A stretch of DNA of 64,000 nucleotides from Allobosea sp. CRIB-10. Its GTDB lineage: Bacteria; Pseudomonadota; Alphaproteobacteria; Rhizobiales; Beijerinckiaceae. Of the stretch, positions 7,691 through 22,606 are shown piece after piece (position 1 is the first letter of the stretch; each line of letters opens with the position of its first letter). The position numbers and the translations under genes were made by a program. The notes below the pieces were generated by a model, which saw only the letters and a list, made by a program, of their open reading frames with translations, ran no database searches and was not told where the DNA came from. The DNA is taken from positions 167,291 to 231,290 of the forward strand of contig NZ_FOKP01000006.1 of NCBI RefSeq assembly GCF_900112185.1. Direction: 5' to 3'.

Positions 7691-7895
7691 TGGGTCGCTC
7701 CCTTGCGTTGTCCGCCGCCTCCTCGGGCGGTGTTGCGGCGTTGTGGCGGTTGGGAGGGCATTGCGTCTGTGATGTGCCGCACATAGGCGTCTCAGCGCGG
7801 CGGCATTGTCGATGACGCGGGCGAGCCAGAGGCCGCACACGGAAGAGCCGCCTTCGCACTTCGCATCAGGCCTCGGATCGACTACGCTGTCTAAA

Positions 7896-7910
7896 ATCTG
7901 AGATTCAGAT
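7896..7910. promoter_or_regulatory. Candidate operator upstream of the XRE regulator
   Basis: A perfect inverted repeat ATCTGA-GAT-TCAGAT located 24 nt before the start of the XRE regulator gene. It contains the heptamer TGAGATT (7899-7905), which recurs twice (8885-8891 and 8903-8909) in the gap before the transporter/orotate operon that the regulator precedes. Assignment as an autoregulatory binding site is inference from position and shared sequence. Confidence 0.45.
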
Positions 7911-7934: not shown

Positions 7935-8858
7935 ATGGCAATCCGGTTCGAGGAAATCGGTGAGCGGCTGAAAGCCTACCGCCTGGGACGCGGGCTGCTG
8001 GCCGAGGACGTCGCCGAGCGTCTCGGGATCTCGCGGGCGGCTGTCTACCGGATCGAAGCCGGGGGCGTGGTCAAGATCGAGACCCTGGAGCGGCTGGCGA
8101 CGCTGTTGGAGACGACCGTCGCTTCGCTGCTCGGGGCAGGGGTCGAGTATTACTCCAGCCCGCTCAGCTATTTCGAGCGCATGCGGCAGATCGAGGAGCA
8201 GGCGGACCAGGTCGTCGCGCATTTCCCGCCGCTGTCCTATCTGCTGACCTCGGACGGCTACTCCGCCCATTTGCGGCAGACCCTGGTGGAGGCGCTGCCA
8301 CCCCACGTCGCGCGCGATCAGGCGGTGGCGGAAATCGATGCCATCATCGCGATCCTCGATGAGCGCAAAAACGCCCGCAAGCGCCGTCGCCTGAGCGTCG
8401 TCAACTTCGTCAATGTGCTCGAGATCGAGCGCTGGCTCAAACTCGGCGTCGTCGGCCGTTTCAACCTGCCGCCGGCCGAGCTGGCCCGCCGCCGCCTGGC
8501 CGCGCGCGCCGAGGTCGAGCATCTGATCGGGCTGATCGAGAGCGAGCCGATGGGGGTTCAGATCGGCCTGATCGAGGAGACGCTGCCGAACATCACCTTC
8601 CAGCTTTTCCGCACCGCGGAGAAGACGCTGCTGGGCCTCAGCCCGTTCCGCCTGGGCGGCGAATTGCCGAATCTCCGGTCCGGCATCGCCATGCTGACCG
8701 CGGATGAGGAGCCGGTACGCCTCTATGAGGAGATTGCCGATGGGCTCTGGCGCCGTGCCCTCAAGGGCAGCGAGGCCGGGGCCGTTCTGCGCGCCGCACT
8801 CGACCGCTCGGCGATCGCGCCGCCGCCGCGGAAGGAGGCATCCTCGGAGCTGGTCTGA
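7935..8858 (+). CDS. XRE-family transcriptional regulator, probable controller of the downstream orotate operon
   Basis: A 307-residue protein with an N-terminal Cro/CI-type helix-turn-helix (~9-66). It contains GERLKAYRLGRGLLAEDVAE, then LGISRAAVYRIEAG and LERLATLLETTVASLLGAG. The remaining ~240 residues are a mixed alpha/beta region without a recognised domain, possibly the effector-binding part. The gene is followed by a 290-bp gap holding two direct repeats that share TGAGATT with a palindrome in its own leader. The operon for a transporter, PyrK/PyrD-like proteins, carbamoylase and PyrE begins next. Control of that operon, perhaps with a pyrimidine effector, is inferred from position and shared motif only. 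Confidence 0.85.
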   Translation: MAIRFEEIGERLKAYRLGRGLLAEDVAERLGISRAAVYRIEAGGVVKIETLERLATLLETTVASLLGAGVEYYSSPLSYFERMRQIEEQADQVVAHFPPLSYLLTSDGYSAHLRQTLVEALPPHVARDQAVAEIDAIIAILDERKNARKRRRLSVVNFVNVLEIERWLKLGVVGRFNLPPAELARRRLAARAEVEHLIGLIESEPMGVQIGLIEETLPNITFQLFRTAEKTLLGLSPFRLGGELPNLRSGIAMLTADEEPVRLYEEIADGLWRRALKGSEAGAVLRAALDRSAIAPPPRKEASSELV

Positions 8859-8881
8859 TGCCGGCTCAAGTCTTGTCGCAA

Positions 8882-8909
8882 AATTGAGATTGTTCTTGCA
8901 ATTGAGATT
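8882..8909. promoter_or_regulatory. Direct-repeat candidate operator before the orotate operon
   Basis: Two identical decamers AATTGAGATT at 8882-8891 and 8900-8909, separated by 8 nt, so start-to-start spacing is 18 bp. They lie in the gap between the XRE regulator and the transporter gene, 240 nt before its GTG. The shared core TGAGATT is also in the palindrome before the regulator. Spacing of nearly two helical turns suits two bound dimers on one face. No convincing -35/-10 pair was fixed. Confidence 0.45.
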
Positions 8910-9148: not shown

Positions 9149-10396
9149 GTGAGTGACAACCAGGCCGCCATGGGCGGCTCCATCGCCCTATCGTCTCCGA
9201 CAGAGGTCGACAGCAAGGCCCGCAAGGCGCTCTGGGGCGCCGCCATCGGCTACGCCATGGATGGCTTCGACCTCCTGATCCTCGGCTTCATGCTGCGCTC
9301 GATCTCCGCCGACCTGCAGCTTACCCAGGGCCAGGCCGCCTCGCTCGTCACCGCCACGCTGGTCGGCGCCGTGCTCGGCGGCATCGGCTTCGGCATGCTG
9401 TCGGACCGGATCGGCCGCGTCCGCGTGCTGACCTGGACGATCGTCCTCTTCGCCGTCTTCACCGGCCTATGCGCACTGGCGCAGGGCTATTGGGACCTGC
9501 TGATCTACCGCACCATCGCAGGCCTCGGCCTCGGCGGCGAGTTCGGCATCGGCATGGCGCTGGTGGCGGAAGCCTGGCCGGCCTCGAAGCGGGCGCGCGC
9601 CTCCTCCTATGTCGGCCTCGGCTGGCAGGTCGGCGTGCTCGCCGCGGCGATCGCAACCCCGATCCTGCTGCCGACGATCGGCTGGCGCGGCATGTTCGCC
9701 ATCGGCATCCTGCCGGCGGTCGCCGCCTATTTCATCCGCCATTCGCTGCACGAGCCCGAGGTCTTCGTCGCCCGCAGCAAGGACCGCCCGAAGGAGTCGG
9801 CGCTACGCCTGCTGGTGAAGGACTGGGACACCACCAAGCTGAGCCTCGGCATGGTCGTGCTCTGCTCGGTCCAGAACTTCGGCTATTACGGCGTGATGAT
9901 CTGGTTGCCGAACTATCTGGCGACCCGCTTCGGCTTCGCCCTGACGCAGTCGGCCGTCTGGACCTCGGTGACCATCGCCGGCATGGCGGTCGGCATCTAC
10001 GCCTTCGGCCATATCGCCGACCGGATCGGGCGCCGCCCGGCCTTCTTCGGCTACATGCTCGGCGCCGCCGTGATGGTCATCGTCTATTCGCGGCTGACCG
10101 ACCCGTTCCAGCTCCTGATCGCCGGCGCGGTGATGGGCTTCTTCGTCAACGGCATGCTCGGCGGCTATGGCGCGCTGATCAGCGAGCTGTTCCCCACTGC
10201 CGCCCGCGCGACGGCGCAGAACGTGCTGTTCAATATCGGCCGCGGCGTCGGCGGCTTCGGTCCGCTCGTGGTCGGGACGATCGCGGCGGCCTACAGCTTC
10301 GAGATGGCGATCGCCTTGCTGGCGACGCTCTATGTGCTCGACATCCTCGCCATGTGGTTCCTGATTCCGGAGCGGCGTGGTGCCGAGCTCGCCTGA
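9149..10396 (+). CDS. MFS transporter (aromatic acid/H+ symporter-like), probable orotate permease
   Basis: A 415-residue, 12-helix major facilitator of the sugar/acid symporter group. An early GYAMDGFDLLILGFM helix precedes motif A (GMLSDRIGRVR), followed by RTIAGLGLGGEFGIGM in helix 4 and a repeat of motif A as HIADRIGRRP. The D-G-F-D in helix 1 is typical of aromatic-acid:H+ symporters, which carry planar carboxylates. The GTG start at 9149 has GGGGGAC upstream. It is the first gene of a unit whose next four genes overlap or nearly touch and act on orotate or its products. That makes orotate the likely substrate, by inference. It acts in the inner membrane. Confidence 0.88.
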   Translation: MSDNQAAMGGSIALSSPTEVDSKARKALWGAAIGYAMDGFDLLILGFMLRSISADLQLTQGQAASLVTATLVGAVLGGIGFGMLSDRIGRVRVLTWTIVLFAVFTGLCALAQGYWDLLIYRTIAGLGLGGEFGIGMALVAEAWPASKRARASSYVGLGWQVGVLAAAIATPILLPTIGWRGMFAIGILPAVAAYFIRHSLHEPEVFVARSKDRPKESALRLLVKDWDTTKLSLGMVVLCSVQNFGYYGVMIWLPNYLATRFGFALTQSAVWTSVTIAGMAVGIYAFGHIADRIGRRPAFFGYMLGAAVMVIVYSRLTDPFQLLIAGAVMGFFVNGMLGGYGALISELFPTAARATAQNVLFNIGRGVGGFGPLVVGTIAAAYSFEMAIALLATLYVLDILAMWFLIPERRGAELA

Positions 10397-10412
10397 GCGC
10401 GGGGGCATCGTG

Positions 10413-11285
10413 ATGTCGATCCAGCACGATCAGTCCCTGGCGACACCCGTCGCCGCCATCGGCGGCGGGATTTCTCCGGCGCCATGGAAGGCGAGCATCG
10501 TCGCCGAGCTCGCCGAGGTCGTCCGCAACGAGGCTGTCAACGCCGAGTACCGGCACCTCGTGGTCAATTGCAGCGAGGAGGCCGCGGCGGCTCAGCCGGG
10601 GCAGTTCTTCCAGCTGCTCTGCCCGCAGCCGGCGGGCGAGCAGCCCTTCCTGCGCCGACCGATGAGTCTTTACGGGGCCGATCCCGACAAGCGTCAGGTC
10701 GAGTTCCTCTACAAGGTGACCGGCGCCGGCACGCGCGGGCTCGACACGCTGAAGCCGGGCGACAGGCTCGACATCATGGGGCCGCTCGGCGTCGGCTTCA
10801 CGCTGGATCCGAGCTGGCGCCACATGGTCGCCGTCGGGCGCGGCGCGGGGCTGGCGACGCTCGCCCCGCTCGCCAGGGCGGCGAAGGCCAACGGCACGCA
10901 GGTGACTGCGGTCTTCAGCGCGAGGCGGCCGGAATTGCTTGTCTCGGTCGAGCTCTTCCATCGCCAGGGCGCCGACGTCATCGCCGTCACCGACGCCGAG
11001 CAGACCAGCGGGCCCGCCAATGTCGAGCGCATCCTGCGCCGCCAGATCGCCGAGGGCCGCTGCGACGCCTTCTTCACCTGCGGTTCGAGCCGGCTGATGC
11101 GGGTGCAACAGCGCCTGGCGCGCGAGTTCGGGCTGCCCGGCCAGGTCGCGATGGAGCAGCAAATGGCCTGCGGAATCGGGCTTTGCTACTGCTGCGTGCG
11201 CGACTTCAACGTCAATGGCGAGATCGTCAACCGGCGCGTCTGCTGGGACGGCCCGGTCTTCGACCTGATGGAGGCGCTGCCATGA
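10413..11285 (+). CDS. pyrK: Dihydroorotate dehydrogenase electron-transfer subunit (PyrK-like)
   Basis: A 290-residue FAD/[2Fe-2S] reductase subunit. It has a flavin-binding barrel with RRPMSLYG (~81-88), an NAD-binding region with GRGAGLATLAPLA (~142-154), and a C-terminal ferredoxin-like cluster motif Cys253-x4-Cys258-x2-Cys261-x15-Cys277. This is the PyrK layout, in which electrons pass between NAD(H) and the PyrD flavin. The ATG at 10413 is 17 nt after the transporter stop; a GTG directly before it is an alternative. The stop overlaps the pyrD-like ATG by 4 nt. NAD-linked class 1B enzymes are known to run in the degradative direction (orotate to dihydroorotate) in Clostridium oroticum. 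Confidence 0.9.
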   Translation: MSIQHDQSLATPVAAIGGGISPAPWKASIVAELAEVVRNEAVNAEYRHLVVNCSEEAAAAQPGQFFQLLCPQPAGEQPFLRRPMSLYGADPDKRQVEFLYKVTGAGTRGLDTLKPGDRLDIMGPLGVGFTLDPSWRHMVAVGRGAGLATLAPLARAAKANGTQVTAVFSARRPELLVSVELFHRQGADVIAVTDAEQTSGPANVERILRRQIAEGRCDAFFTCGSSRLMRVQQRLAREFGLPGQVAMEQQMACGIGLCYCCVRDFNVNGEIVNRRVCWDGPVFDLMEALP

Positions 11286-12244
11286 GCGGGGCAGGCAATA
11301 TCGACCTCTCGGTCAGGATCGGCGGGCTCACCCTGCGCAATCCGGTCATGCCGGCCTCGGGCACCTTCGCCGAGGGGCTGGAGAAGGTGATGGACTTCAA
11401 CCGGCTCGGCGCCTTCGTCACCAAGACGATCACGCGCGAACTGCGCGCCGGCAATCCGCTGCCGCGGGTGGTCGAGCGGCCGGGCGGGCTGATCAATGCC
11501 ATCGGCATCCCGTCGAAAGGCGTGCCCTATTTCGTCGAGACGACCATGCCGCATTATGCGGCCTATGACACGCCGCTGGTCGTCTCGATCTCGGCGCCGA
11601 CGGCGGAAGGCTTCGCCAGCCTCGCGGCCGAGCTCTCGATCCCCGGCATCGCCGCGATCGAAGCCAACATCTCCTGTCCCAACATCGAGGAGGACGGCAA
11701 GGCCTTCGCGATGCGGGCCGAGTCGACCGAAAAGGTGACGCGCGAACTGCGCAGGGCGACGTCGTTGCCGCTCTGGGTCAAGCTGACGCCCAATACCGGC
11801 GACGTGCCCGAGGTCGCGCGTGCCGCCGAGGCGGCGGGAGCCGATGCGGTCGTGGTCGCCAACACCATCCTGTCGATGGCGATCGACCTGAAGAGCTTCA
11901 AGCCCTGCCTCGGCAACATCATGGGCGGGCTCTCGGGGCCGGCGATCAAGCCGATCGTGCTGCGCCAGGTCTTCCAATGCGCCAAGGCGGTGAAGATCCC
12001 GGTGATCGGCTGCGGCGGCATCTCCAGCGCCGAGGACGCGGCCGAATACATGCTCGCCGGCGCCAGCGCCGTTCAGGTCGGCACCGCGACCTTCCTGCAG
12101 CCGGCGGCGATGACGACGATCATCGACGGGCTCGCAGCCTTCTGCCTGCGCCGCGAAATCCCGCGCGTCGCCGACCTGATCCATGGCGTGGTGATCGAGG
12201 AGGCCGACGAGCCCGACCTCGCCTGGCTGGACCCGGTCTCGTGA
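11282..12244 (+). CDS. pyrD: Dihydroorotate dehydrogenase, class 1B catalytic subunit
   Basis: A 320-residue FMN TIM-barrel protein. Class 1 features are the catalytic cysteine in NISCPN (Cys132), VTKTIT with the FMN/substrate lysine (Lys48), the NAIGIPSKG loop, GGLSGPAIKP and the phosphate-binding GCGGISS. Class 1B enzymes pair with PyrK, and a PyrK-like gene overlaps its start. The 4-nt overlap on both sides shows tight translational coupling. Because a carbamoyl-amino-acid hydrolase, not biosynthetic genes, follows, I infer a catabolic role in reducing orotate to L-dihydroorotate. Reduction of other pyrimidines (PreA-like) is a less likely alternative, since this protein lacks the ferredoxin domain of PreA. 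Confidence 0.9.
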   Translation: MSGAGNIDLSVRIGGLTLRNPVMPASGTFAEGLEKVMDFNRLGAFVTKTITRELRAGNPLPRVVERPGGLINAIGIPSKGVPYFVETTMPHYAAYDTPLVVSISAPTAEGFASLAAELSIPGIAAIEANISCPNIEEDGKAFAMRAESTEKVTRELRRATSLPLWVKLTPNTGDVPEVARAAEAAGADAVVVANTILSMAIDLKSFKPCLGNIMGGLSGPAIKPIVLRQVFQCAKAVKIPVIGCGGISSAEDAAEYMLAGASAVQVGTATFLQPAAMTTIIDGLAAFCLRREIPRVADLIHGVVIEEADEPDLAWLDPVS

Positions 12245-13536
12245 GCGCGCAAGCGGCCGAGATGCGCAACGTCTTCAGCGGCGACGCGGGCGACCGGGCC
12301 CTCGCCGAGGCGCTGTTCGACACCCTGCGCGAGGCGACGGGCGACGGCGTCGGCATCACCCGGGAAGCCTATAGCGAACGCGAGTCGCTGGCGCTCGACA
12401 TCGTCGAGGCGAAGGCGCGCGAACTCGGCTTCGCGACCGAGCGCGACGCCGGCGCCAACCTCGTCGTCACGCTGGCGGGCCGCGAGCCGGAGCTGCCCTT
12501 CCTCGCCTGCGGTTCGCATCTCGATTCCGTGCCGCAAGGCGGCAATTTCGACGGCGCCGCCGGCGTCATCGCCGGGCTCGCCATCATCGCCCGCTTCAAG
12601 GAGGAGGGCTTCGTCCCGCGCCGGACCATCAAGGTCTTCGGCTTGCGCGGCGAGGAAAGCTCCCGCTTCGGCCGGGCCTATATGGGCTCCAGCGCCCTGT
12701 TCGGGACACTCTCGGCCGCCGATCTTGCCGCGCGCGACCATGCCAGCGGGCGGACTCTCGCCGAGTGCATGGCCGCTGTCGGCGTCGACATGGCCCGCGT
12801 CGAGAAGGCCGAGCCGCTGCTCGATCCCGCCGCCGTCGCGGCGTGGATCGAGCTGCATATCGAACAGGGTCCCGTGCTGGTCGCCCGCGACCTGCCGATC
12901 GGCATCGTCACCGGGATCAGGGGCAATATCCGCCACCGCCAGGTCGAATGCCTCGGCGAGGCCGGCCATTCCGGCGCGGTGCCGCGCTGGCTCCGGCGCG
13001 ACGCGGTCTTCGCCACCGCCGAACTGATCACCCATCTCGACCGGCACTGGCGCACGCTGCTGGAGCGCGGCCGCGACGTGGTCGTGACGGCCGGCGTGCT
13101 CGGCACCGATCCGCAGGAGCACGCCATCGCGCGCATTCCCGGCACCGTGCGCTTCTCCTTCGAGGTGCGCAGCCAGAGCCGCGAGACGCTGGAGGCCTTC
13201 TACGATCTCTTCCTCTCGGAATGCGCCCTGATCGGTGAGGAGCGAGGGGTCGAGTTCCGTGTCGACCGCCGGCTCGAATCCGAGCCTGCCGTGATGGATG
13301 CCGGCTGGATCGCCCGGCTTAAGGCCGCCGCCCGCGCTCTCGGCCTGCCCGACGAGGACATTCCGAGCGGGGCCGGCCATGATGCCGCTGTTTTCGCCAA
13401 TGCCGGCATCCCCAGCGCGATGATCTTCGTGAGCAACCAGAACGGTTCGCATAATCCGGATGAGGCGATGGCGATCGATGATTTCCTCGCCGGGATCGCG
13501 GTGATGCGGGACGCCATCAGGGAGGCGGTGCGATGA
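12241..13536 (+). CDS. Zn-dependent N-carbamoyl-L-amino-acid hydrolase (M20/HyuC-like)
   Basis: A 431-residue binuclear metal hydrolase of the hydantoinase/carbamoylase group in family M20. Metal ligands and active-site landmarks are His93 in GSHLDSVPQGG, Asp104 in GNFDGAAGV, GEESSRFG (Glu138/139), a conserved ELHIEQGPVL, and the C-terminal GSHNPDEAM histidine. The start is GTG at 12241, overlapping the pyrD stop. Enzymes of this type remove the carbamoyl group from N-carbamoyl-L-amino acids, releasing CO2 and ammonia; related ones act on allantoate or beta-ureidopropionate. In this operon N-carbamoyl-L-aspartate (ureidosuccinate) is the expected substrate, giving aspartate. The next gene overlaps by 4 nt. 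Confidence 0.9.
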   Translation: MSAQAAEMRNVFSGDAGDRALAEALFDTLREATGDGVGITREAYSERESLALDIVEAKARELGFATERDAGANLVVTLAGREPELPFLACGSHLDSVPQGGNFDGAAGVIAGLAIIARFKEEGFVPRRTIKVFGLRGEESSRFGRAYMGSSALFGTLSAADLAARDHASGRTLAECMAAVGVDMARVEKAEPLLDPAAVAAWIELHIEQGPVLVARDLPIGIVTGIRGNIRHRQVECLGEAGHSGAVPRWLRRDAVFATAELITHLDRHWRTLLERGRDVVVTAGVLGTDPQEHAIARIPGTVRFSFEVRSQSRETLEAFYDLFLSECALIGEERGVEFRVDRRLESEPAVMDAGWIARLKAAARALGLPDEDIPSGAGHDAAVFANAGIPSAMIFVSNQNGSHNPDEAMAIDDFLAGIAVMRDAIREAVR

Positions 13537-14213
13537 GCGCGAACGAGATCGGCCGTGAGGTCGCCGAGCTGCTGTTCAGGGCCGGCGCCATCCATGTCAG
13601 CCGCCAGCAGCCCTTCATCCTCGCCGCCGGCTGGGCGAGCCCGGTCTATGTCGATGTCCGCCTGCTGCTCGGCGATCCTGATCTGCGCCGGGCGGTCAGC
13701 GATCTCGCCGCCCGCTATGCGGCAGCGACCTTTCCGCCGGGCAGCTTCGACGCGATTGCCGGTGCCGAAACCGCCGGCATCCCTTTCGCCGCCTGGCTCG
13801 CCGACCGGCTGGCGCTGAAGCTGCGCTATGTCCGCAAGCGCCCGCTCGGCATCGGCCGCAACGCCCAGGTCGAGGGCGGGCCGGTCGAGGGCCTCAGCGT
13901 CCTGCTGATGGACGATCTGACCACCGATGGCGGCAGCAAGCTCAACTTCGCCCGCGGCCTGCGCGCAGCGGGGGCGCAGGTCGAGCACGTGCTGACGATC
14001 TTCTATCACGACGCCTTCCCCGGCGCCGGTGAGCGGCTGCGGGAGGCCGGCCTGACGCTGCATGCGCTCGCGAATTGGGGCGATGTCCTTCGTGCCGGGG
14101 CCGGTAGAGCGCTCGCGCCCGAAGACCGCGCCGAGATCGAGCGCTTCTTGGCCGATCCGGTGACATGGTCGACCCGCCATGGCGGGCGCGCCCGCCTCGC
14201 CCCGCGGAACTGA
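13533..14213 (+). CDS. pyrE: Orotate phosphoribosyltransferase
   Basis: A 226-residue type I phosphoribosyltransferase. The PRPP loop VLLMDDLTTDGGSK lies at 123-136, and the orotate/PRPP region YVRKRPLG at 99-106 is typical of PyrE. An N-terminal FILAAGWASPVYVDVR matches the family dimer/hood segment. It converts orotate plus PRPP to OMP. The ATG overlaps the stop of the carbamoylase gene. A PyrE inside a transport and degradation operon would let imported orotate be salvaged into UMP as well as degraded. Whether the chromosome has a second, biosynthetic pyrE cannot be seen here. Confidence 0.9.
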   Translation: MSANEIGREVAELLFRAGAIHVSRQQPFILAAGWASPVYVDVRLLLGDPDLRRAVSDLAARYAAATFPPGSFDAIAGAETAGIPFAAWLADRLALKLRYVRKRPLGIGRNAQVEGGPVEGLSVLLMDDLTTDGGSKLNFARGLRAAGAQVEHVLTIFYHDAFPGAGERLREAGLTLHALANWGDVLRAGAGRALAPEDRAEIERFLADPVTWSTRHGGRARLAPRN

Positions 14214-14266: not shown

Positions 14267-14572
14267 ATGACCGAGCTTCTGAATTGGCTGCTGCAGCAGA
14301 AGGGCAGCCTTCGCACCTATGTCGAATTCCAGGACCGGGCGCTGGCCCTGCGCGCCGAAGCACCGGAGCAGGCCGCGCTGCTGCGCCTGCTCGCCGATCT
14401 CGCCGGCCGTTTCGTCGAGGCCTATGACCGCCAGCCGCTCTCCGCCGAGATCGCGGGTCGTGCGCTGGACCGGCTCGCCAGCCTTCTCGGCAAGGCGGTC
14501 GCGGAAAGCGCTGCAGATCCGAACAGCCAGCTTGCACTGCTCAACGAGGTCGGGGTCAGCGAGCTCGTTTGA
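14267..14572 (+). CDS. Small helical protein of unknown function
   Basis: A 101-residue protein starting MTELLNWLLQQKGSLRTYVE. It is rich in Ala, Leu and Glu and predicted by eye to be almost entirely alpha-helical. No signal peptide, membrane segment or known motif is visible. It starts 53 nt after pyrE on the same strand, with GGAGATGAC just upstream of the ATG, so it may be the last gene of the orotate operon. Codon use matches its neighbours. No function is proposed. Confidence 0.6.
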   Translation: MTELLNWLLQQKGSLRTYVEFQDRALALRAEAPEQAALLRLLADLAGRFVEAYDRQPLSAEIAGRALDRLASLLGKAVAESAADPNSQLALLNEVGVSELV

Positions 14573-14914: not shown

Positions 14915-16414
14915 TTACTGAGAACCGCTTGGGACTCGGCAGGTCTGAACAATTGCCGCGGCGACGTAGTGGCGCCTCAAGGCTTCGGAGAGTTCGCTCG
15001 CCAGGCTCCTGGTCCCAGCGTCGAGCCGCGTTTCTGCGGCGGTCAGCCTCGCCGCGGCGCGGATGCTCTCGGTTGCCGCCGCGGTCGATGCGCCATGCCG
15101 ATGCAGGATGCGGCCGCCGACCATGGTCATGATGATGTCGTGGCCGGAGGCCCGCGCCAACATGGCTTCGAGCATCGGCATCTGCGGATCGAGATAGGCG
15201 CCTTCCGGCGCAGCCAGATTGATCGCGACCAGATCGGCCTTGAAGCCGTCGCGGATGCGCCCCGTGTCAGCGAGAAAGGCAGCCTCCGCGCCCCATTCAG
15301 TGGCGACGGCGATGGATGTACGCAGCTGATCGTCGGCCGGAACCGTGGCGCTGCGTCCGAGCAGGCGCCCGAGCCGCAGCTCCGACAGATAGTCCTCATT
15401 GTCGTCGAGGGCGCAATTGTCGGTGCCGAGCCCGAAGCGAAGTCCTGCGTCGATCAGCGCGGCGACCGGCGGGGCGCCGTTGCCGAGGCGTAGATTGGAG
15501 CCGGGGTTGACGACGATCCTCAGGCCGAGCCGCGCCGCATCGGCGATGTCGCGTGCGCTCGCGTGCACGAAATGCGCTGCGCTTGCGCACGTCTCGAAGA
15601 CGCCGAGGCGTTCGAGCCGCGCAAGCACGCCCTCGGGATAGAGCGAACGGGCGCAGGCGGCCTGCGCCGGAGATTCGAGCAGGTGGAAATGCAGGCCGAG
15701 CCCGTGCTCCTTCGCGTCGGCTGCCAGTGCCCGCCAGGCCTCGTCGCTGACCCATTGCGGCCCGGCCGGCCCATAGGCGAAGGATAGGCGCGGATGCCCG
15801 GCATAGTCCGCGCGCAGGCGCGCCATCAGGCCGATCGTCCCGGCCAGCGACAGGTAGCCGGGCCTGCCCGCGCCAATCAGGGCCCGCAGCTCCGCCGGCA
15901 GAGTGGCAAGGAACGCCGCCTCGTCCGCTGGCGGATAGACCAGGCTGCCCCGGTCGGCATAGCCGACGCAGATGGTGGCGCGCAGGCCGGCATCGTCATA
16001 GGCGCAGATCGAAGCCCGCAGCTCCGCCTCGTAGTCCCCCGAGCCGTAGGAATAGTTGGCGTGCAGGGTCGCCGTCACGCCGTTCTCGATCATCTGGAGC
16101 GCAGCGAGCCGGGTCAGGGCATAGACATCGGGCACGCCGCGGCCCCGCCGGCGGGCGATCCAGGGCTCCAGGCTGTCATCGGGAAAGCCGAGCTGGATCT
16201 GGCTGAGGCCGCGCCCGTGCTGATGCGCGTTGACCAGGCCGGGCATCAGGCAGGCATGGCCGAGCGAGACCGTCTCGGCCCTGGGATGAGCTGCGCGGAT
16301 CTCGGCTGCCGTCCCGCAAGCGGCGATCAGGCCGTCTCGCACGGCGACCGCCCCGCCCGCTATCACGGGCGAGGCGGCATCGCGCAGGACATGGTCCGCT
16401 TCGAGAACGAGCAC
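14915..16414 (-). CDS. Amidohydrolase, cytosine-deaminase/chlorohydrolase-like
   Basis: A 499-residue amidohydrolase-superfamily deaminase or hydrolase of the AtzA/TrzN/SsnA/8-oxoguanine-deaminase group. The metal site is visible as the HxH pair in VNAHQHGRG (His64, His66), a distal histidine in LHFHLLES, another in AHFVHAS, and the catalytic Asp in GTDNCALDDNED. An N-terminal composite beta-sandwich (residues 1-55) and a C-terminal MVGGRILHRHG are also family features. It starts with GTG 3 nt after the TRAP large permease gene, so its substrate is probably what the TRAP system imports. N-heterocycles (pyrimidines, purines, guanidino compounds) are typical. The exact one is unknown. Confidence 0.85.
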   Translation of the reverse strand: MLVLEADHVLRDAASPVIAGGAVAVRDGLIAACGTAAEIRAAHPRAETVSLGHACLMPGLVNAHQHGRGLSQIQLGFPDDSLEPWIARRRGRGVPDVYALTRLAALQMIENGVTATLHANYSYGSGDYEAELRASICAYDDAGLRATICVGYADRGSLVYPPADEAAFLATLPAELRALIGAGRPGYLSLAGTIGLMARLRADYAGHPRLSFAYGPAGPQWVSDEAWRALAADAKEHGLGLHFHLLESPAQAACARSLYPEGVLARLERLGVFETCASAAHFVHASARDIADAARLGLRIVVNPGSNLRLGNGAPPVAALIDAGLRFGLGTDNCALDDNEDYLSELRLGRLLGRSATVPADDQLRTSIAVATEWGAEAAFLADTGRIRDGFKADLVAINLAAPEGAYLDPQMPMLEAMLARASGHDIIMTMVGGRILHRHGASTAAATESIRAAARLTAAETRLDAGTRSLASELSEALRRHYVAAAIVQTCRVPSGSQ

Positions 16415-16417
16415 GGC

Positions 16418-17719
16418 TCAGAACAGCTTCTGCGGCAGCCAGAGCGCCATTTGCGGCCAGGCCACCAGCAGGCCGGTGAACGCCAGCATCAGCAGCACGA
16501 AGGGCAGCGCCCCGTAGATCACGTCCATGATCGAGCCGTGGTTGCGCACGCCCTGGACGACGTAGAGGTTCATGCCGATCGGCGGCGTGATCAGCCCGAT
16601 CTCCATCATCAGCACCAGGAAGATGCCGAACCAGACCGGATCGATGCCGAGATGGACGATCAGCGGGAAGACGACCGGCAGGGTCGCGATCATCATGGAG
16701 AGGGTCTCCATGAAGCAGCCGAGGATCAGGTAGAAGATCACCAAGACCAGGATGATCTCGAGCTGGGTCGCGCCGAACTTCGAGACGAAGCCGGTCAACG
16801 CCTGCGGAATGCCGAGCACGCCGATGACGAAGTTGAGGAAATGCGCGCCGACCATGATCAGCAGGATCATCGACGAGATGCGGACCGTCGCGATCATGCT
16901 CTCGTGCAGCAGCGAAAGCGAGAAGCCCTTGCGCGCCATCGCCACGCCGATGGCGCCGACGACGCCGACCGCGGCCGATTCCGTCGGCGTCGCCCAGCCG
17001 AGATAGATCGAGCCCATCACGATGACGAAGATCACGAAGGGCGGGAAGATGTCGAGCAGGCTCCGGATCTTCTCCGCCGTGGAGCGGGCCGGCAGCGTCG
17101 GCCCGGCGACGCTGGGCTTGAGGATCGCCATCACCACGATCAGCGCCATGAACAGCGCGGTCAGCAGCAGGCCCGGCACGATGCCTGCGGCGAAGAGCTG
17201 GCCGATCGAGGTGTTCGTCATCGACCCGTAGATGATCAAGTTGATCGAGGGCGGGATCAGGATGCCGAGCGTCGCGCCGGCGGCGATGGAGCCGGTGGTC
17301 ATGCGGTCGTCGTAGTGCCGCTCGCGCAGCAGCGGCAGCGCGACGGTGCCGATCGTCGCGGCAGTCGCGACCGAGGAGCCGGAAACCGCCGCGAACACCG
17401 CGCTGGCGCCGATATTGGTGTGCAGCAGACCACCCGGAAGGCGCCGCAGCCAGTCCGAGAGGCAGCGATAGAGCCCGTCCGCGACACCGGAGCGGACCAG
17501 GATCTCGCCGAGGAAGACGAAGAGCGGGATGGCGGTCAGGATGAAATCGTTCTGACCGCTCCACATCTGGTTGCCGAAGCCCATCAGGGTCGGCCAGCCC
17601 AGGAAGCCCCAGGCCCCGATGAAGGCGGTCAGGAAGAGCGCGACCGCCACGGGCAGCCCGATCATCATCAGGCCGAGCATCATCACGAAGCCGATGGCGG
17701 CGCCGGTCACACCGATCAT
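16418..17719 (-). CDS. dctM: TRAP transporter large permease (DctM type)
   Basis: A 433-residue polytopic membrane protein, the ion-coupled transport subunit of a TRAP system. Landmarks are the conserved GNQMWSGQNDFILTAIPLFV, ASAVFAAVSGSSVATAATIG, AGATLGILIPPSINLIIYG and GLITPPIGMNLYVVQG, as in the DctM elevator domain with two hairpin loops. Its start overlaps the stop of the small permease by 4 nt, and the amidohydrolase begins 3 nt downstream. It pairs with dctQ and dctP here. Substrates of TRAP systems are usually organic acids, and the neighbouring catabolic genes suggest a nitrogen-containing one. Confidence 0.93.
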   Translation of the reverse strand: MIGVTGAAIGFVMMLGLMMIGLPVAVALFLTAFIGAWGFLGWPTLMGFGNQMWSGQNDFILTAIPLFVFLGEILVRSGVADGLYRCLSDWLRRLPGGLLHTNIGASAVFAAVSGSSVATAATIGTVALPLLRERHYDDRMTTGSIAAGATLGILIPPSINLIIYGSMTNTSIGQLFAAGIVPGLLLTALFMALIVVMAILKPSVAGPTLPARSTAEKIRSLLDIFPPFVIFVIVMGSIYLGWATPTESAAVGVVGAIGVAMARKGFSLSLLHESMIATVRISSMILLIMVGAHFLNFVIGVLGIPQALTGFVSKFGATQLEIILVLVIFYLILGCFMETLSMMIATLPVVFPLIVHLGIDPVWFGIFLVLMMEIGLITPPIGMNLYVVQGVRNHGSIMDVIYGALPFVLLMLAFTGLLVAWPQMALWLPQKLF

Positions 17720-18312
17720 TGGCCGGTCACCTTCATCTCGAGCGAGGACACCGTTTCTTCTTCGATGATCTCGTCCAGCGTCTTGACGCCGTAGAAGCGG
17801 TTGAGGCGGCTGCGCCCCTGCCCGATCAGCCAGCTCGCATGCAGCGCGACGGCGGTCGCGGTGATCGCGAAGAACAGCAGCCCGGCGAACCAGAGCAGTT
17901 GCGGCTGCCAGAGCGGCGTCATCAGCGGCGTTCCGGAGAGCGCCTGGAATTCGATGCTCTCGCTCAGCGCTGCATAGGAACGCCAGGCCATGAAGCAGGC
18001 CATCAGCGCGATACACCAGGCCGAGACCAGGTTGAGGATCGCCTGCGGCCCGCGGCCGACACGCTCGACGAGTATCTCGACCCGCGTATGGGCCCGCTCC
18101 AGCAGGGCATAGGAGAACCCGAAGGCCGCCAGGATCGCCAGCACATAGCCGCCGAATTCGTCGCCGCCTTGCAGCGACACGTTCATGAAGCGCCGCAGCA
18201 GGATTTCGGCGGTGACGAGCAAGGCGAGCCCGAGCAGAAGATAGCCTGCGATCAGCGCCAGCCAGCGGGCGGTAGGCAGCAGGGCGCGTGCGACCGGGTT
18301 TTCCGGGGTCAT
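17716..18312 (-). CDS. dctQ: TRAP transporter small permease (DctQ type)
   Basis: A 198-residue protein with four predicted membrane helices, starting around WLALIAGYLLLGLALLVTAE. It has the DctQ-type GGDEFGGYVLAILAAFGFSYAL with an acidic pair after helix 1 and RAHTRVEILVERV before helix 3. The C-terminal ~35 residues are cytoplasmic and charged. It stabilises DctM in the inner membrane. It overlaps dctM by 4 nt. It is separated from dctP by about 50 nt that hold a strong intrinsic-terminator-like hairpin, so expression may be lower than that of dctP. Confidence 0.9.
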   Translation of the reverse strand: MTPENPVARALLPTARWLALIAGYLLLGLALLVTAEILLRRFMNVSLQGGDEFGGYVLAILAAFGFSYALLERAHTRVEILVERVGRGPQAILNLVSAWCIALMACFMAWRSYAALSESIEFQALSGTPLMTPLWQPQLLWFAGLLFFAITATAVALHASWLIGQGRSRLNRFYGVKTLDEIIEEETVSSLEMKVTGQ

Positions 18313-18327
18313 GGACCAATCCCTTGG

Positions 18328-18356
18328 AAAAAGGGCCGCCCCCCTGGAGCGGCCCT
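18328..18356 (-). terminator. Intrinsic terminator/attenuator between dctP and dctQ
   Basis: Read on the minus strand, a perfect 8-bp stem AGGGCCGC / GCGGCCCT with an 8-nt loop is followed directly by five T residues. It lies 6 nt beyond the dctP stop and about 16 nt before the dctQ start. The two genes are otherwise in one operon, so it probably acts as a partial terminator that raises binding-protein output over permease output. Confidence 0.75.
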
Positions 18357-18361
18357 GTCGA

Positions 18362-19405
18362 TTACTGGATGGTCAGCCCCGCAGCCGCACCCGCCGTCTC
18401 GTTCCACTTGGCGGAACAGCCGGCGTCGACGGCGTTGCAGGTCTTCTTCCAGATCGGCAGCACGACCTTCTCAGCGACATCCTTGATGGCCTGCCGGTCG
18501 CCGGGGCTGATCTCGACGAGCTTCATCGTGAACTTCTTATGCGCCTTGCACTCGCCCTGGCCGGTGCTGCAGGCCGTCGCGTCGTCATTGGCGGTGATCG
18601 CGAGATTCCAGAGCTGGTCCTCCAGTGCCTTGAACTGCGTCATCAGCTTCGCCTGCTGCTCGGGCGAGAACTTCTTCCAGGTGTCGAGATTGATGAAGTG
18701 GCCCTGCACCGAGCCGGAGACCGAGAGCGGCAGGAGATGAGTCGTCACCTCCGGCCAGTTGCCGGTATTGCCGGAGGTCGGCGAGGTGACACCGCAGGAG
18801 GCGACGCCGCGCTGCAGCGCCGGATAGACCTCGGAAAACTGCAGCGTGACCGGCGTCGCGCCGAAATGCTCCAGCATCGCCGACATGGACGGGGTGAAGG
18901 AGCGGACCTTCAGCCCCTTCAGGTCCTTGAGGCCCTTGATGTCGTGGTTGCAGTAGAAGATTTGCGGGCCGAACGGCCACAGCGCCAGGACCTTAGCGTT
19001 GAAGCGCTTCTGCAGGCGCTCGTCGAAGGCCGGGCGGTAGGCGTCGACGACCTTGCGCAGCCCCGCCATGTCGGTGGCGACGCCGATCAGGTCGACGCCC
19101 TCGAAGAAGGGGTCGTCGCGCGAGGCCATGCCGATCTGCACGGACATGACGTCGAAGGAGCCGCCGCGCAGCATGCGCAGTGCATCCGGCGCCTTCACGC
19201 CGACGACGTCCATCGGGTTGTAGTTCATCGCGATCGGAACGCCCGACTTGGCGCCGAGCGCGTCGAAGAAGGCCCGTTCGATGTCGACCTGCTTGACGTT
19301 CTGCGAAAAATTGCCGGCCACCCGCAGCGGCGTCTGCGCCGAAACCGGCGAGAGACTGATTGCCAGGCCGGCGGCGAGGGCCGCGCTCGCGATGATATTT
19401 CTCAT
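18362..19405 (-). CDS. dctP: TRAP transporter substrate-binding protein (DctP type)
   Basis: A 347-residue periplasmic receptor. A Sec signal peptide (MRNIIASAALAAGLAISLSP, cleavage near VSA-Q) precedes a DctP fold with GLKDLKGLKVRSFTPSMSAM and the arginine of KVRSF expected to hold a substrate carboxylate. GATPVTLQFSEVYPALQRGV is a conserved family stretch. Three C-terminal cysteines (TACSTGQGEC..., CNAVDAGCS) could form disulfides. It heads the TRAP unit and is separated from dctQ by an attenuator hairpin. The ligand is probably a carboxylate related to the amidohydrolase substrate, but it is not predictable from sequence. Confidence 0.92.
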   Translation of the reverse strand: MRNIIASAALAAGLAISLSPVSAQTPLRVAGNFSQNVKQVDIERAFFDALGAKSGVPIAMNYNPMDVVGVKAPDALRMLRGGSFDVMSVQIGMASRDDPFFEGVDLIGVATDMAGLRKVVDAYRPAFDERLQKRFNAKVLALWPFGPQIFYCNHDIKGLKDLKGLKVRSFTPSMSAMLEHFGATPVTLQFSEVYPALQRGVASCGVTSPTSGNTGNWPEVTTHLLPLSVSGSVQGHFINLDTWKKFSPEQQAKLMTQFKALEDQLWNLAITANDDATACSTGQGECKAHKKFTMKLVEISPGDRQAIKDVAEKVVLPIWKKTCNAVDAGCSAKWNETAGAAAGLTIQ

Positions 19406-19698
19406 TGTGCCTTCCCCTTTTGCATTATGAATACAGTTTACGCAGGCACTGCCGAAAATCTCCTCATTCCCGGCGAGCCTCTCTCCCAGGCAAAATCCTC
19501 CCTGATCCGAGCGAGCTGAAAGGCGTCGCGCAGTTCTGATTTTCGTCGCTTTCGATCAGGTTATCGCGAAAAATCCAGCACACAACCAAAATAATGCGAT
19601 CGAGATACGGCTTGCCAAGCGGGCCGAAGCCGCTGCATAAAAATCACCCAGCTCGCATTCGAGAGCTTGAGGCGATCCGGTCAATAGGCAATTTCTGC
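19406..19698. promoter_or_regulatory. Divergent promoter region
   Basis: About 290 bp between the start of dctP (minus) and the start of the racemase-family gene (plus), so it must hold promoters for both catabolic units. It is clearly more AT-rich than its surroundings (for example ACAACCAAAATAATGCGATC and TTTTGCATTATGAATACAG). It is the most likely target of the GntR regulator encoded at 20457. No unambiguous operator palindrome was fixed by eye. Confidence 0.5.
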
Positions 19699-20460
19699 AT
19701 GCAATATGACAAGAAGCCGATTCTGATCGGGATGCTCACCCCCTCGTCGAACACGGTGCTGGAGCCCTACACTGCGGCGCTCGCGGCGCCGCTTTTCCCA
19801 GGGGTCAGCGTCCATTTCAGTCGCTTCCGGGTGACGAAGATCGCTCTGGACGAGGCCTCGAACAGCCAGTTCACGCTGGAACCGATCCTGCAGGCGGCGG
19901 AGCTGCTCGCCGATGCGCGTCCCGATGTCATCGCCTGGAACGGGACCTCGGCGAGCTGGCTCGGCTTCGACAGCGACGAGAGGCTGTGCGCCGCGATCAC
20001 GGAGCGAACGGGCGTTCCCGCGACCAGCGCGATCCTCGGCCTCAATCGCCTGCTCGGGACGATGGGCGTGCGGCGCCTCGGGCTGGTGACGCCCTATACC
20101 GCGGACGTGCAGCGGAAGATCATGGCCAATTACGCCGCAGCGGGCTTCGAGACCGTCGCCGAGCGACATAGCGGCCGCTCGGACAATTTCTCCTTCGCGG
20201 AGGTGCCGGAGGCCGAGATCGCCACCATGTGCCGCGAGGTCGCCGCGGCGCAGCCGGACGCCATAGCCATCGTCTGCACCAATATGCGGGGCCCGCTGAT
20301 CGCGCCGGAACTGGAGCAGGAGCTCGGCATCCCGATCCTGGATTCGGTCGCCTTCACGCTGTGGGGGTGTCTCGACGCCACTGAGGTGGATATGTTGCCG
20401 CTGCGCAGGTTCGGCAGGATGTTCGCCAGCCGGCTTGCGCCGCTCCCCGCATCCACGTGA
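19699..20460 (+). CDS. Asp/Glu racemase-superfamily protein, arylmalonate decarboxylase/maleate isomerase-like
   Basis: A 253-residue cytosolic enzyme. The N-terminal IGMLTPSSNTVLEPY is typical of maleate cis-trans isomerase-like proteins. The second active-site loop keeps a cysteine (Cys193 in IVCTNMRGP). The first loop reads WNGTSASWLG (Gly82), so the first catalytic cysteine of racemases and isomerases is replaced by glycine, as in arylmalonate decarboxylase (Gly74/Cys188). LGLNRLLGTMGVRRLGLVTPY is the conserved central segment. ATG 19699 was chosen at the fold start; the frame is open 105 nt further up. It overlaps the GntR gene by 4 nt. Decarboxylation, or isomerisation using one cysteine, is possible. 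Confidence 0.82.
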   Translation: MQYDKKPILIGMLTPSSNTVLEPYTAALAAPLFPGVSVHFSRFRVTKIALDEASNSQFTLEPILQAAELLADARPDVIAWNGTSASWLGFDSDERLCAAITERTGVPATSAILGLNRLLGTMGVRRLGLVTPYTADVQRKIMANYAAAGFETVAERHSGRSDNFSFAEVPEAEIATMCREVAAAQPDAIAIVCTNMRGPLIAPELEQELGIPILDSVAFTLWGCLDATEVDMLPLRRFGRMFASRLAPLPAST

Positions 20461-21206
20461 GGCAGGTCGTGCCGGTATTCGCTGTGCTTCCGACTGAGGA
20501 GTTTGTGCTGGATGAAGCGCCCGCGACCCTGCACGATCGTCTGGTCAGCCGGCTACGGGCGCTTTTCCTCGAAGGCGAACTGCCCGAGGGCAGCCGGATT
20601 CCGGAAATCGCGCTCAGCGAGCGCTTCGGGGTGTCCCGCACGCCGCTGCGCGAGGCGCTCAAGGTCATGGCCGCCGAAGGCTTCGTGATCCTGCGCCCGA
20701 ACCGGGGCGCGGTGGTCGCTCCGGTCGATCCGACGGAGGTCGCGCCTCTCGTCGAATTCAAGGGCGCCCTGGAGCGCCTGATCGGTTTGCTCGTACCCTC
20801 GCGCGCCAGCGAAGCGGATATTGCCGAGCTCGAAAGGCTCCATCTCGATCTGGGCGATGCCCTGGAGCGGCAGGATCACGCCGCCTATACCCGGATCAAC
20901 TACGCTTTCCACCAGCGCCTCGCGCAGGCGACGCGCAATCCGGTGCTGGCGCAGAACTACGAGGCGGTGCAGCAGAAGATCTGGCGTTACCGTTTCACCA
21001 TCAACGAGCTCTCAGATCGGCTGACCGCCTCCTATGCCGAGCATGAAGGCATCATGGCTGCGCTGCGCGCCCGGACCCGGCTCGATCTCGCCGAGCGCCT
21101 GGAAGAGCACAACCGGCTGACCGGTGAGGCGATGGCACAGGCGTTGGCTACGACCGGCCGGTTCAGCCCCTCGCACAAGAGCCGCAAGCGGAGCCGGTCG
21201 GCATGA
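20457..21206 (+). CDS. GntR-family transcriptional regulator (FCD type)
   Basis: A 249-residue regulator. A winged helix-turn-helix (~24-90) contains LPEGSRIPEIALSERFGVSR followed by TPLREALKVMAAEGFVILRP. An all-helical FCD effector domain (~95-230) follows, with the metal/ligand residues expected around FHQRLAQATRNPVL and the EHEGIMAALRARD-like stretch. GTG start at 20457, overlapping the upstream gene by 4 nt and the hydantoinase gene by 4 nt, so it is made with the enzymes it probably controls. FCD regulators usually respond to organic acids that are substrates of the nearby pathway. The likely operator is in the 19406-19698 divergent region. Confidence 0.9.
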   Translation: MRQVVPVFAVLPTEEFVLDEAPATLHDRLVSRLRALFLEGELPEGSRIPEIALSERFGVSRTPLREALKVMAAEGFVILRPNRGAVVAPVDPTEVAPLVEFKGALERLIGLLVPSRASEADIAELERLHLDLGDALERQDHAAYTRINYAFHQRLAQATRNPVLAQNYEAVQQKIWRYRFTINELSDRLTASYAEHEGIMAALRARTRLDLAERLEEHNRLTGEAMAQALATTGRFSPSHKSRKRSRSA

Positions 21207-22606
21207 CCCAATTCGACACGATCATCCGCGGCGGCCGCATCTCAACGGCGTCGGACACCTTCCATTGCGATATCGGCATAAAGGACGGCCGCATCACCGC
21301 GCTGGGCGAGGCGCTCGGCAGCGCTGGCACCGTTATCGACGCTGCAGGAAAATGGGTGCTTCCCGGCGGGATCGACAGCCATGTGCATATCTCGCAGCCT
21401 TCCGGCGAAGGCATCGTGATGGCCGATGATTTCGAGAGCGCGACCCGTTCGGCGGCGCTCGGCGGCAACACCACCGTCCTGCCCTTCTGCACGCAGGAGA
21501 GTGGCATTCCGCTGCGCGAGAGCGTGAAGGCTTATCACGCCAAGGCGGAAGGTGCCTGCCATACGGATGTCGCCTTCCACCTGATCATCTCCGAGCCGAC
21601 CGAGAGCGTGCTGGGACAGGAACTGCCGGCGCTGGTGCGCGACGGCTACACCTCCTTCAAGGTCTTCATGACCTATGAGGGGCTGGCGCTCAGCGATCTC
21701 GACATGCTCAGGGTCATGGCCGTGGCGCGCGATACGCGCGCCCTCGTCATGGTCCATGCCGAGAACTACGACGTCATCCGCTACCTGACCGACCAGCTCG
21801 AACGGGCCGGCAGCACGGCGCCCCGCTTCCATGCCACTTCGCGCCCGATCATCGCGGAGCGGGAGGCGACCTACCGGGCGATCTCCTTGGCCGAATTGTC
21901 GGATGTTCCGCTGATGGTGGTGCATGTCTCAAATCGCGAGGCGATGGAGGAGATCAGACGGGCGCAGCAGAAGGGTCTCAAGATCTTCGCGGAGACCTGC
22001 CCGCAATATCTGACGCTGACCGCTGATGATCTCGACGGGCTCAACATGGAGGGCGCCAAATATGTCTGCTCGCCGCCGCCGCGTGACGCCGAAAGCCAGC
22101 TAGCCTGCTGGGAAGGCCTGCAGCAGGGCGTATTCTCGGTGTTCTCCTCGGACCATTGCCCGTTCCGCTATGACGACCCGCAGGGCAAGCTCGCACCGAA
22201 GGGCCGGACCAGCTTCCGCTGGGTGCCCAACGGCATTCCGGGCGTCGGCGCGCGCCTGCCGATCCTGTTCTCGGAAGGGGTGATCAAGGGCCGGATCGAC
22301 ATCAACCGCTTCGTCGCGCTGACCGCGACCAATCACGCCAGGATGTACGGGCTCTCGCCGCGCAAGGGCACGATCGCGGTGGGCGCCGACGCCGACATCG
22401 CGATCTGGAATCCGCAGATCGAGCAGACGCTGACGCATGCGATGGTGAACGACGGCTCCGACTACACGCCCTATGAAGGCATGAGGATCACCGGCTGGCC
22501 GGTGATGACCCTCGTGCGCGGGCAGATCGTGGCGCGCGACGGCAGGATCGAAGCCCAGAAGGGCCATGGCATCTATCTCAAGCGCGATATCAGCCAGTTC
22601 GCCTGA
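21203..22606 (+). CDS. D-hydantoinase / dihydropyrimidinase-family amidohydrolase
   Basis: A 467-residue cyclic-amide hydrolase. The full binuclear metal site is present: His60 and His62 in GGIDSHVHISQP, the carboxylated Lys153 in TSFKVFMTYEG, His185 in MVHAEN, His241 in VVHVSN and Asp317 in SSDHCPF. It opens hydantoin or dihydropyrimidine rings to N-carbamoyl amino acids. With the carbamoylase at 12241 it would complete a ring-opening and decarbamoylation route. Action on dihydroorotate would supply the dihydroorotase step missing from the orotate operon, but this is a hypothesis. Allantoinase is an alternative within the same superfamily. It is cotranscribed with the GntR gene. Confidence 0.9.
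   Translation: MTQFDTIIRGGRISTASDTFHCDIGIKDGRITALGEALGSAGTVIDAAGKWVLPGGIDSHVHISQPSGEGIVMADDFESATRSAALGGNTTVLPFCTQESGIPLRESVKAYHAKAEGACHTDVAFHLIISEPTESVLGQELPALVRDGYTSFKVFMTYEGLALSDLDMLRVMAVARDTRALVMVHAENYDVIRYLTDQLERAGSTAPRFHATSRPIIAEREATYRAISLAELSDVPLMVVHVSNREAMEEIRRAQQKGLKIFAETCPQYLTLTADDLDGLNMEGAKYVCSPPPRDAESQLACWEGLQQGVFSVFSSDHCPFRYDDPQGKLAPKGRTSFRWVPNGIPGVGARLPILFSEGVIKGRIDINRFVALTATNHARMYGLSPRKGTIAVGADADIAIWNPQIEQTLTHAMVNDGSDYTPYEGMRITGWPVMTLVRGQIVARDGRIEAQKGHGIYLKRDISQFA

Follow-up and report, generated by a model that had tools for sequence, protein, structure and literature searches.

The pathway by which Clostridium degrades orotate was elucidated some seventy years ago, and in Clostridium oroticum it leads from orotate through dihydroorotate and N-carbamoyl-aspartate to aspartate. 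The dihydroorotate dehydrogenase of this organism is placed in class 1B by the title of a study that PMC9326563 cites. Here we describe an operon of the alphaproteobacterium Allobosea sp. CRIB-10, which lies in a stretch of 64,000 nucleotides (the window; contig NZ_FOKP01000006.1, C40:167291-231290) of the 6.33-Mb genome. The operon encodes an MFS transporter, a PyrK-like electron-transfer subunit, a class 1B dihydroorotate dehydrogenase (PyrD), a carbamoylase of the M20 family and an orotate phosphoribosyltransferase (PyrE), and we consider it probable that its products import orotate and degrade it to aspartate and ammonia as food, with a share likely reaching uridine monophosphate (UMP). 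Orotate catabolism is in this case a well supported prediction from sequence. No such operon outside Clostridium was found described in the Creative Commons-licensed literature, a scope that leaves out most subscription papers, including the transporter survey of the Enzyme Function Initiative (EFI).

A sequence-only reading of the window had already recognized the five genes and the 4-nt overlaps joining the last four, and both held up: all five open reading frames are complete and intact (Table 1), each family is over its Pfam cut-off, and the overlaps lie at the PyrK/PyrD, PyrD/M20 and M20/PyrE junctions. A further overlap of 20 nt between the MFS and PyrK genes is contingent on the choice of the PyrK start. 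An XRE-type regulator gene, operator-like sites and a sixth gene had been missed. The operon PyrD exceeds the class 1 NCBIfam cut-offs (NF005574, 344 versus 269 bits; TIGR01037, 298.5 versus 270), does not reach that of the PreA model NF006183 (138.4 versus 335), and retains the NISCPN motif of solved class 1B enzymes, the cysteine of which we take to be the catalytic base. Its partner is named no more than PyrK-like, as it scores under every NCBIfam PyrK cut-off that it matched (126.3 versus 270, 125.2 versus 219, 124 versus 314 and 94.6 versus 224); solved PyrK chains match it at 89-90 bits. PyrE falls just below the cut-off of NF001729 (244.2 versus 245) and below that of TIGR00336 (90.2 versus 106.8), and matches the solved orotate phosphoribosyltransferase 4ohc at 205.5 bits.

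A search with PyrD found 101 relatives, of which 80 were kept as related loci and their gene order read by tblastn. These include representatives of the Hyphomicrobiales, Acetobacteraceae and Rhodobacteraceae, along with Thalassospira, Pigmentiphaga and one member of the Orbaceae. The PyrK gene lies immediately 5' of PyrD in all 80 loci and the M20 gene immediately 3' of it in 79, frequencies that argue against a chance arrangement; PyrK-PyrD-M20 is kept as a unit in 79/80. PyrE comes next in the run in 61 loci and lies within 7 kb in 71, and a dimer-type dihydroorotase (PyrC) immediately follows M20 in 36, both being enzymes of the orotate pathway. An XRE gene occurs within 7 kb in 55 loci, and a homologue of the aspartate-ammonia-lyase AspA in 8. 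Three loci (L024, L031, L085) have transporter, PyrK, PyrD, M20, PyrC, PyrE and AspA homologue in one row, so that adjacent genes of some relatives encode the whole predicted route from orotate to fumarate. Family assignment of the AspA homologues, checked in L021, L024 and L035 only, places them over the PRK12273 cut-off of 510 (717, 725 and 719 bits) and under the stricter TIGR00839 (647, 652 and 647 versus 681); the matches of L055, L085 and L094 show 51-55% identity, that of L094 being partial. The sole locus of the 80 with a PyrK-PyrD pair and no M20 gene is that of the Orbaceae member (L088). Two PyrE genes per locus are seen in L024, L025, L026 and L032, and in the first three of these one is divergent from the MFS gene.

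Elsewhere the Allobosea genome carries a quinone-type PyrD (contig C45; TIGR01036, 374 versus 200) and another PyrE (contig C65), which is 49% identical to the operon PyrE and whose gene is divergent from one for a dimer-type PyrC. As the C65 PyrE clears both cut-offs (NF001729, 395 versus 245) and the operon PyrE falls just under that of NF001729, the latter protein looks like the diverged copy. These two genes would render the operon copies dispensable for biosynthesis; the sequence-only reading had held that a pyrD/pyrE set without further copies in the genome would be biosynthetic, and a further copy of each is present. Among 149 sampled genomes of the family, the class 1 PyrD cut-off is passed in only 13 (2/7 within the genus), with some match in 147. 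The organism is a relative of Bosea, as the genome holding the Bosea lupini locus (L020, G150) and one listed under the same genus (G052) agree in coordinates and score of their single PyrC match. Together with the second copies, the sparse distribution of class 1 PyrD marks the operon as accessory. The pyrB gene on a further contig (L104, G000:C39) stands beside a PyrC-like partner without the HxH metal motif, which is probably non-catalytic.

The M20 enzyme is predicted to be an N-carbamoyl-L-aspartate amidohydrolase (ureidosuccinase). It lies below the cut-offs of the specific models ErtE (NF058540, 311.5 versus 520) and AllC (TIGR03176, 213 versus 597.75). Residues H93, D104, E139, H206 and H404, which we take to be the metal-ligand positions, are present in all 80 operon M20 enzymes. 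In the related enzyme RrCbAA, Arg291 forms a salt bridge with the substrate carboxyl (PMC10952681). By our reading of the alignment this residue corresponds to Arg310 of the operon enzymes, which is invariant in 80/80. Two more arginines, Arg249 and Arg298, are likewise found in 80/80, the three paralogs in the same genome having M, M, M and V, V, I at these positions; furthermore, position 297 is Ala, Ser or Thr in the operon enzymes and Asn in 2/3 of the paralogs, and an R-x-N-x-R motif occupies 227-231. The positive charge that the extra arginines add would suit a dicarboxylate substrate. Position 298 is also Arg in five of five M20 relatives encoded on plasmids.

Orotate as the imported substrate is suggested by the transporters of related loci. 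The window MFS protein is nearest to the aromatic-acid:H+ symporter type (TIGR00895, 317.3 bits, below the cut-off of 418.55) and is predicted to be an orotate importer. A homologue more than 50% identical to it lies within 7 kb in 38/80 loci and a TRAP permease in 30/80, one locus (L075) having both; 24 of the 30 permease genes are immediately upstream on the same strand, and six are placed elsewhere (L037, L041, L075, L084, L092, L093). The TRAP receptor of L066 is identical in 204/329 positions (62%) to 4NN3, a receptor from Maridesulfovibrio salexigens reported to have been solved with bound orotic acid, and for which the same paper singles out a lysine (PMC11668362). This lysine, as placed in our alignment, is kept in 30/30 receptors of the related loci. 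Orotic acid is moreover named in PMC5812351 as one of the TRAP ligands that the EFI survey identified.

The operon has no dihydroorotase, and the sequence-only reading was right to place the ring-opening enzyme outside it. Its candidate for this step, a hydantoinase at 21203, did not stand: relatives use PyrC-type dihydroorotases (two of those encoded in operons were family-checked, at 414 and 432 bits versus a cut-off of 293), and the genome itself has the unlinked dimer-type PyrC on C65, a clear dihydroorotase candidate that shares 86-87% identity with the PyrC encoded in the operons of two other Bosea (L024, L030). The core of that reading, degradation combined with salvage, is in contrast supported by the second copies and, in relatives, by the dihydroorotase (36/80), AspA (8/80) and the TRAP receptor. 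Sixteen operon-bearing genomes were checked for this type: the operon copy is the sole dimer-type PyrC in three (with loci L024, L025 and L030), and in three others (L023, L026, L043) no match to it was found. Across the family, dimer-type PyrC is over the cut-off in 27/149 genomes, namely 9/13 with class 1 PyrD and 18/136 without (Fisher p 2.6e-5, a value that is too small, as the genomes are related). In a Pseudomonas putida plasmid a distant dihydroorotase type (PRK09236, 701 versus 535 bits) fills the same slot, and such different types in one slot argue that the function itself is selected. For the Allobosea genome the simplest reading is that the C65 PyrC runs in both directions.

The XRE-type regulator likely binds the TCTCA-N4-TGAGA palindromes, as judged from their distribution. 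Upstream regions were compared in those 62 of 80 loci where a gene for an MFS transporter or TRAP receptor could be located (18 being omitted), or 63 with the window. The palindrome, allowing one mismatch, occurs in 36 of these 63, where 0.35 would be expected from mononucleotide shuffles, and all 36 are among the 51 regions with an XRE gene within 7 kb, the 12 regions without one having none. At this stringency the 80 loci contain 98 palindromes, 77 of which are followed within 330 bp by a pathway or XRE gene, whereas the other 21 are not. The extended pattern of the site at 8876 is found once in the genome. The C-terminal half of the regulator, with a predicted phospholipase-D-like fold from which the HxK motif is absent, is a possible effector-binding domain. 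In five of the 80 loci (L037, L038, L040, L041, L087) the operon has genes for an NMT1-type ABC transporter and for a uridine-phosphorylase-like protein close by, those of the transporter being preceded by an exact palindrome. The two uridine-phosphorylase-like proteins tested do not reach the cut-off for uridine phosphorylase; a phosphopentomutase is present in L038, with a partial match in L040. Our guess is that these palindrome-linked genes form an orotidine or uridine branch.

The sixth gene encodes a 101-aa protein that matches no NCBIfam or Pfam model, and none of its relatives that were tried is over a cut-off. Its 41 homologues are called hypothetical proteins where the source names them, and most are nameless. 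A single-pass hidden Markov model search finds the family in 54/80 loci (two being seeds), each copy no farther than about 2.2 kb, measured between gene centres, from a pathway or XRE gene; the search also finds it in 5/5 plasmid loci (four being seeds). In an Agrobacterium plasmid (L166) the M20 protein carries it as a C-terminal portion (E 7.1e-14), and this fusion suggests that the 101-aa protein is a partner of the carbamoylase. Its AlphaFold model consists of five helices (predicted local distance difference test score, pLDDT, 94.3) and gave no informative structural match.

A search of plasmid proteins with PyrD (E<=1e-60) returned 79 records, 53 of them from Klebsiella, and five loci (L165-L169) were read. 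The Klebsiella plasmid has an MFS transporter, a protein at the position of PyrK, PyrD, M20, pyrC, a helix-turn-helix (HTH) protein and the small protein; that of Variovorax additionally has a porin and PyrE, that of Nitratireductor a TRAP transporter, and the P. putida cluster lies with a malic enzyme and a chemotaxis receptor. In the Agrobacterium plasmid pyrF adjoins PyrK, and the part of the sequence that was read contains no dihydroorotase. All five PyrD copies are labelled plain dihydroorotate dehydrogenase, four with a pyrimidine-biosynthesis term.

Table 1. Features of the orotate locus, in window coordinates
Feature	Coordinates	Strand	Evidence or remark
Operator-like palindrome TCTCA-N4-TGAGA, 1 mismatch	7890..7903	+	5' of the XRE regulator gene
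XRE-type HTH regulator	7935..8858	+	C-terminal half: predicted phospholipase-D-like fold
Main operator-like site TCGCA-AAAT-TGAGA	8876..8889	+	1 mismatch to the palindrome
Second, weaker palindrome copy	8894..8907	+	2 mismatches; 18 bp beyond the main site
MFS transporter	9149..10396	+	Pfam MFS_1 above cut-off
PyrK-like electron-transfer subunit, [2Fe-2S] domain	10377..11285	+	PF10418 DHODB_Fe-S_bind, 45.3 bits versus 23.9
Class 1B dihydroorotate dehydrogenase PyrD	11282..12244	+	Pfam DHO_dh above cut-off; NISCPN motif present
M20 carbamoylase	12241..13536	+	Pfam Peptidase_M20 above cut-off; TIGR01879, 301.1 versus 204
Orotate phosphoribosyltransferase PyrE, genome's second copy	13533..14213	+	Pfam Pribosyltran above cut-off
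101-aa all-helical protein, sixth operon gene	14267..14572	+	begins 53 nt past PyrE

Beyond the sixth gene, the window from 14915 to 22606 holds genes for an amidohydrolase, TRAP-type-looking transporter components, an arylmalonate-decarboxylase/racemase-like protein, a GntR regulator and a dihydropyrimidinase, apparently a separate catabolic set.

Based on these observations we propose a route whose substrates, reaction directions and regulator binding we infer. Orotate brought in by the transporter would be reduced to dihydroorotate by PyrD together with PyrK; ring opening would likely fall to a dihydroorotase whose gene lies elsewhere in the genome, and the M20 enzyme would likely split N-carbamoyl-aspartate into aspartate, CO2 and ammonia. 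Some of the orotate would likely be turned into UMP by PyrE, and the regulator, likely bound before its own gene and that of the transporter, would likely sense orotate or an intermediate. The same M20 activity would consume the N-carbamoyl-aspartate that the cell itself makes as the precursor of new pyrimidines; PyrE in a degradative operon would make sense for this reason, as its co-expression would sustain nucleotide synthesis with UMP made from imported orotate.

Several points weigh against this proposal. MFS transporters form a broad family, and the TRAP evidence comes from relatives rather than from the window transporter. PyrK and PyrE are under curated NCBIfam cut-offs, and class 1B PyrD enzymes are reversible and often biosynthetic. 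Position 249 of M20 is R, L, R, R and K in the five plasmid relatives and is thus not strict. A dihydroorotase is absent from the window operon and does not directly follow M20 in 44/80 relatives; as the unlinked C65 PyrC also shows no palindrome within two mismatches, one step of the route depends on a gene that is probably shared with biosynthesis. No palindrome is seen in 15/51 XRE-bearing regions, the counts among the 80 related loci are not independent, and the genome's own aspartate ammonia-lyase match is barely above the cut-off (514 versus 510) and may be a fumarase.

The reversibility of class 1B enzymes also admits a purely salvaging operon, in which the transporter imports orotate or dihydroorotate, PyrDK oxidizes the latter, PyrE makes UMP and the M20 enzyme is unrelated. 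The presence of PyrE in the cluster and the adjacent pyrF of the Agrobacterium plasmid agree with this, but M20 (79/80) is a steadier partner than PyrE (61/80 next in the run), a dihydroorotase follows M20 in 36/80, and the AspA homologue in 8/80 points to use of aspartate, so that we regard salvage alone as improbable. Still further down we place a backup for biosynthesis at low oxygen, in which PyrDK, linked to nicotinamide adenine dinucleotide, and the second PyrE stand in when respiration stalls. Class 1B PyrD functions without quinone and the other PyrD of the genome is of the quinone type, as such a backup would have it; however, the carbamoylase and importer encoded alongside would make for a loss of precursor, and only 13/149 sampled family genomes carry a class 1 PyrD. 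Equally slight is the chance that the operon degrades another acidic cyclic ureide, for instance a substituted dihydropyrimidine or a hydantoin carboxylate, a related ring then being the substrate of PyrDK. The substrate of M20 is a prediction and the enzyme scores below the specific M20 equivalog cut-offs that it matched, which leaves room for this, yet PyrE in 61/80 runs, the dimer-type PyrC in 36/80 and the 62% identity of a TRAP receptor to one solved with orotic acid all point to orotate.

Degradation of orotate, if this is the function of the operon, would assign a gene to a classical enzyme activity, give class 1B PyrD genes a role in genomes already holding a quinone-type PyrD, provide a first lead for the unnamed 101-aa family and explain why PyrE travels with a degradative operon. 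Dozens of other bacteria and several plasmids carry the cluster as a unit, and its new elements are the candidate N-carbamoyl-aspartate hydrolase gene, the small protein fused to M20 in one plasmid, and the dedicated regulator with its operator. This raises a wider proposal, on which we hold the balance to be even: a mobile proteobacterial orotate catabolon, joining the gene for N-carbamoyl-L-aspartate hydrolase (M20) to a new small helical partner and a new XRE regulator with a phospholipase-D-fold sensor, whose operator in some rhizobia also governs a branch for orotidine or uridine uptake and phosphorolysis.

Among known systems, biosynthetic pyr operons of the Bacillus type share the PyrK-PyrD pair and PyrE with the window operon, which in contrast has no pyrB, carAB or pyrF, includes an importer and a carbamoylase, and belongs to a genome with a second PyrD and PyrE elsewhere. 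The reductive degradation of uracil and thymine (PreTA or Pyd, dihydropyrimidinase, beta-ureidopropionase) involves the same three reaction types with the carbamoylase last; here, however, PyrD is far below the PreA cut-off, relatives use a PyrC-type dihydroorotase instead of dihydropyrimidinase, and PyrE is added. The resemblance to the 4NN3 receptor (62%) is that of the L066 receptor, the only one compared with it, the window using an MFS transporter and not TRAP. RrCbAA (8C46), 3N5F and AllC (1Z2L) share family, metal-ligand positions and the carboxyl-binding arginine with the operon M20 enzymes, which differ in bearing Arg249, Arg298 and the R-x-N-x-R motif. Closest is the orotate degradation of C. 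oroticum, with the same predicted chemistry and a class 1B dehydrogenase; the operon described here belongs to another phylum, leaves its dihydroorotase unlinked, and combines this chemistry with a transporter, PyrE, a regulator, an operator and a small protein.

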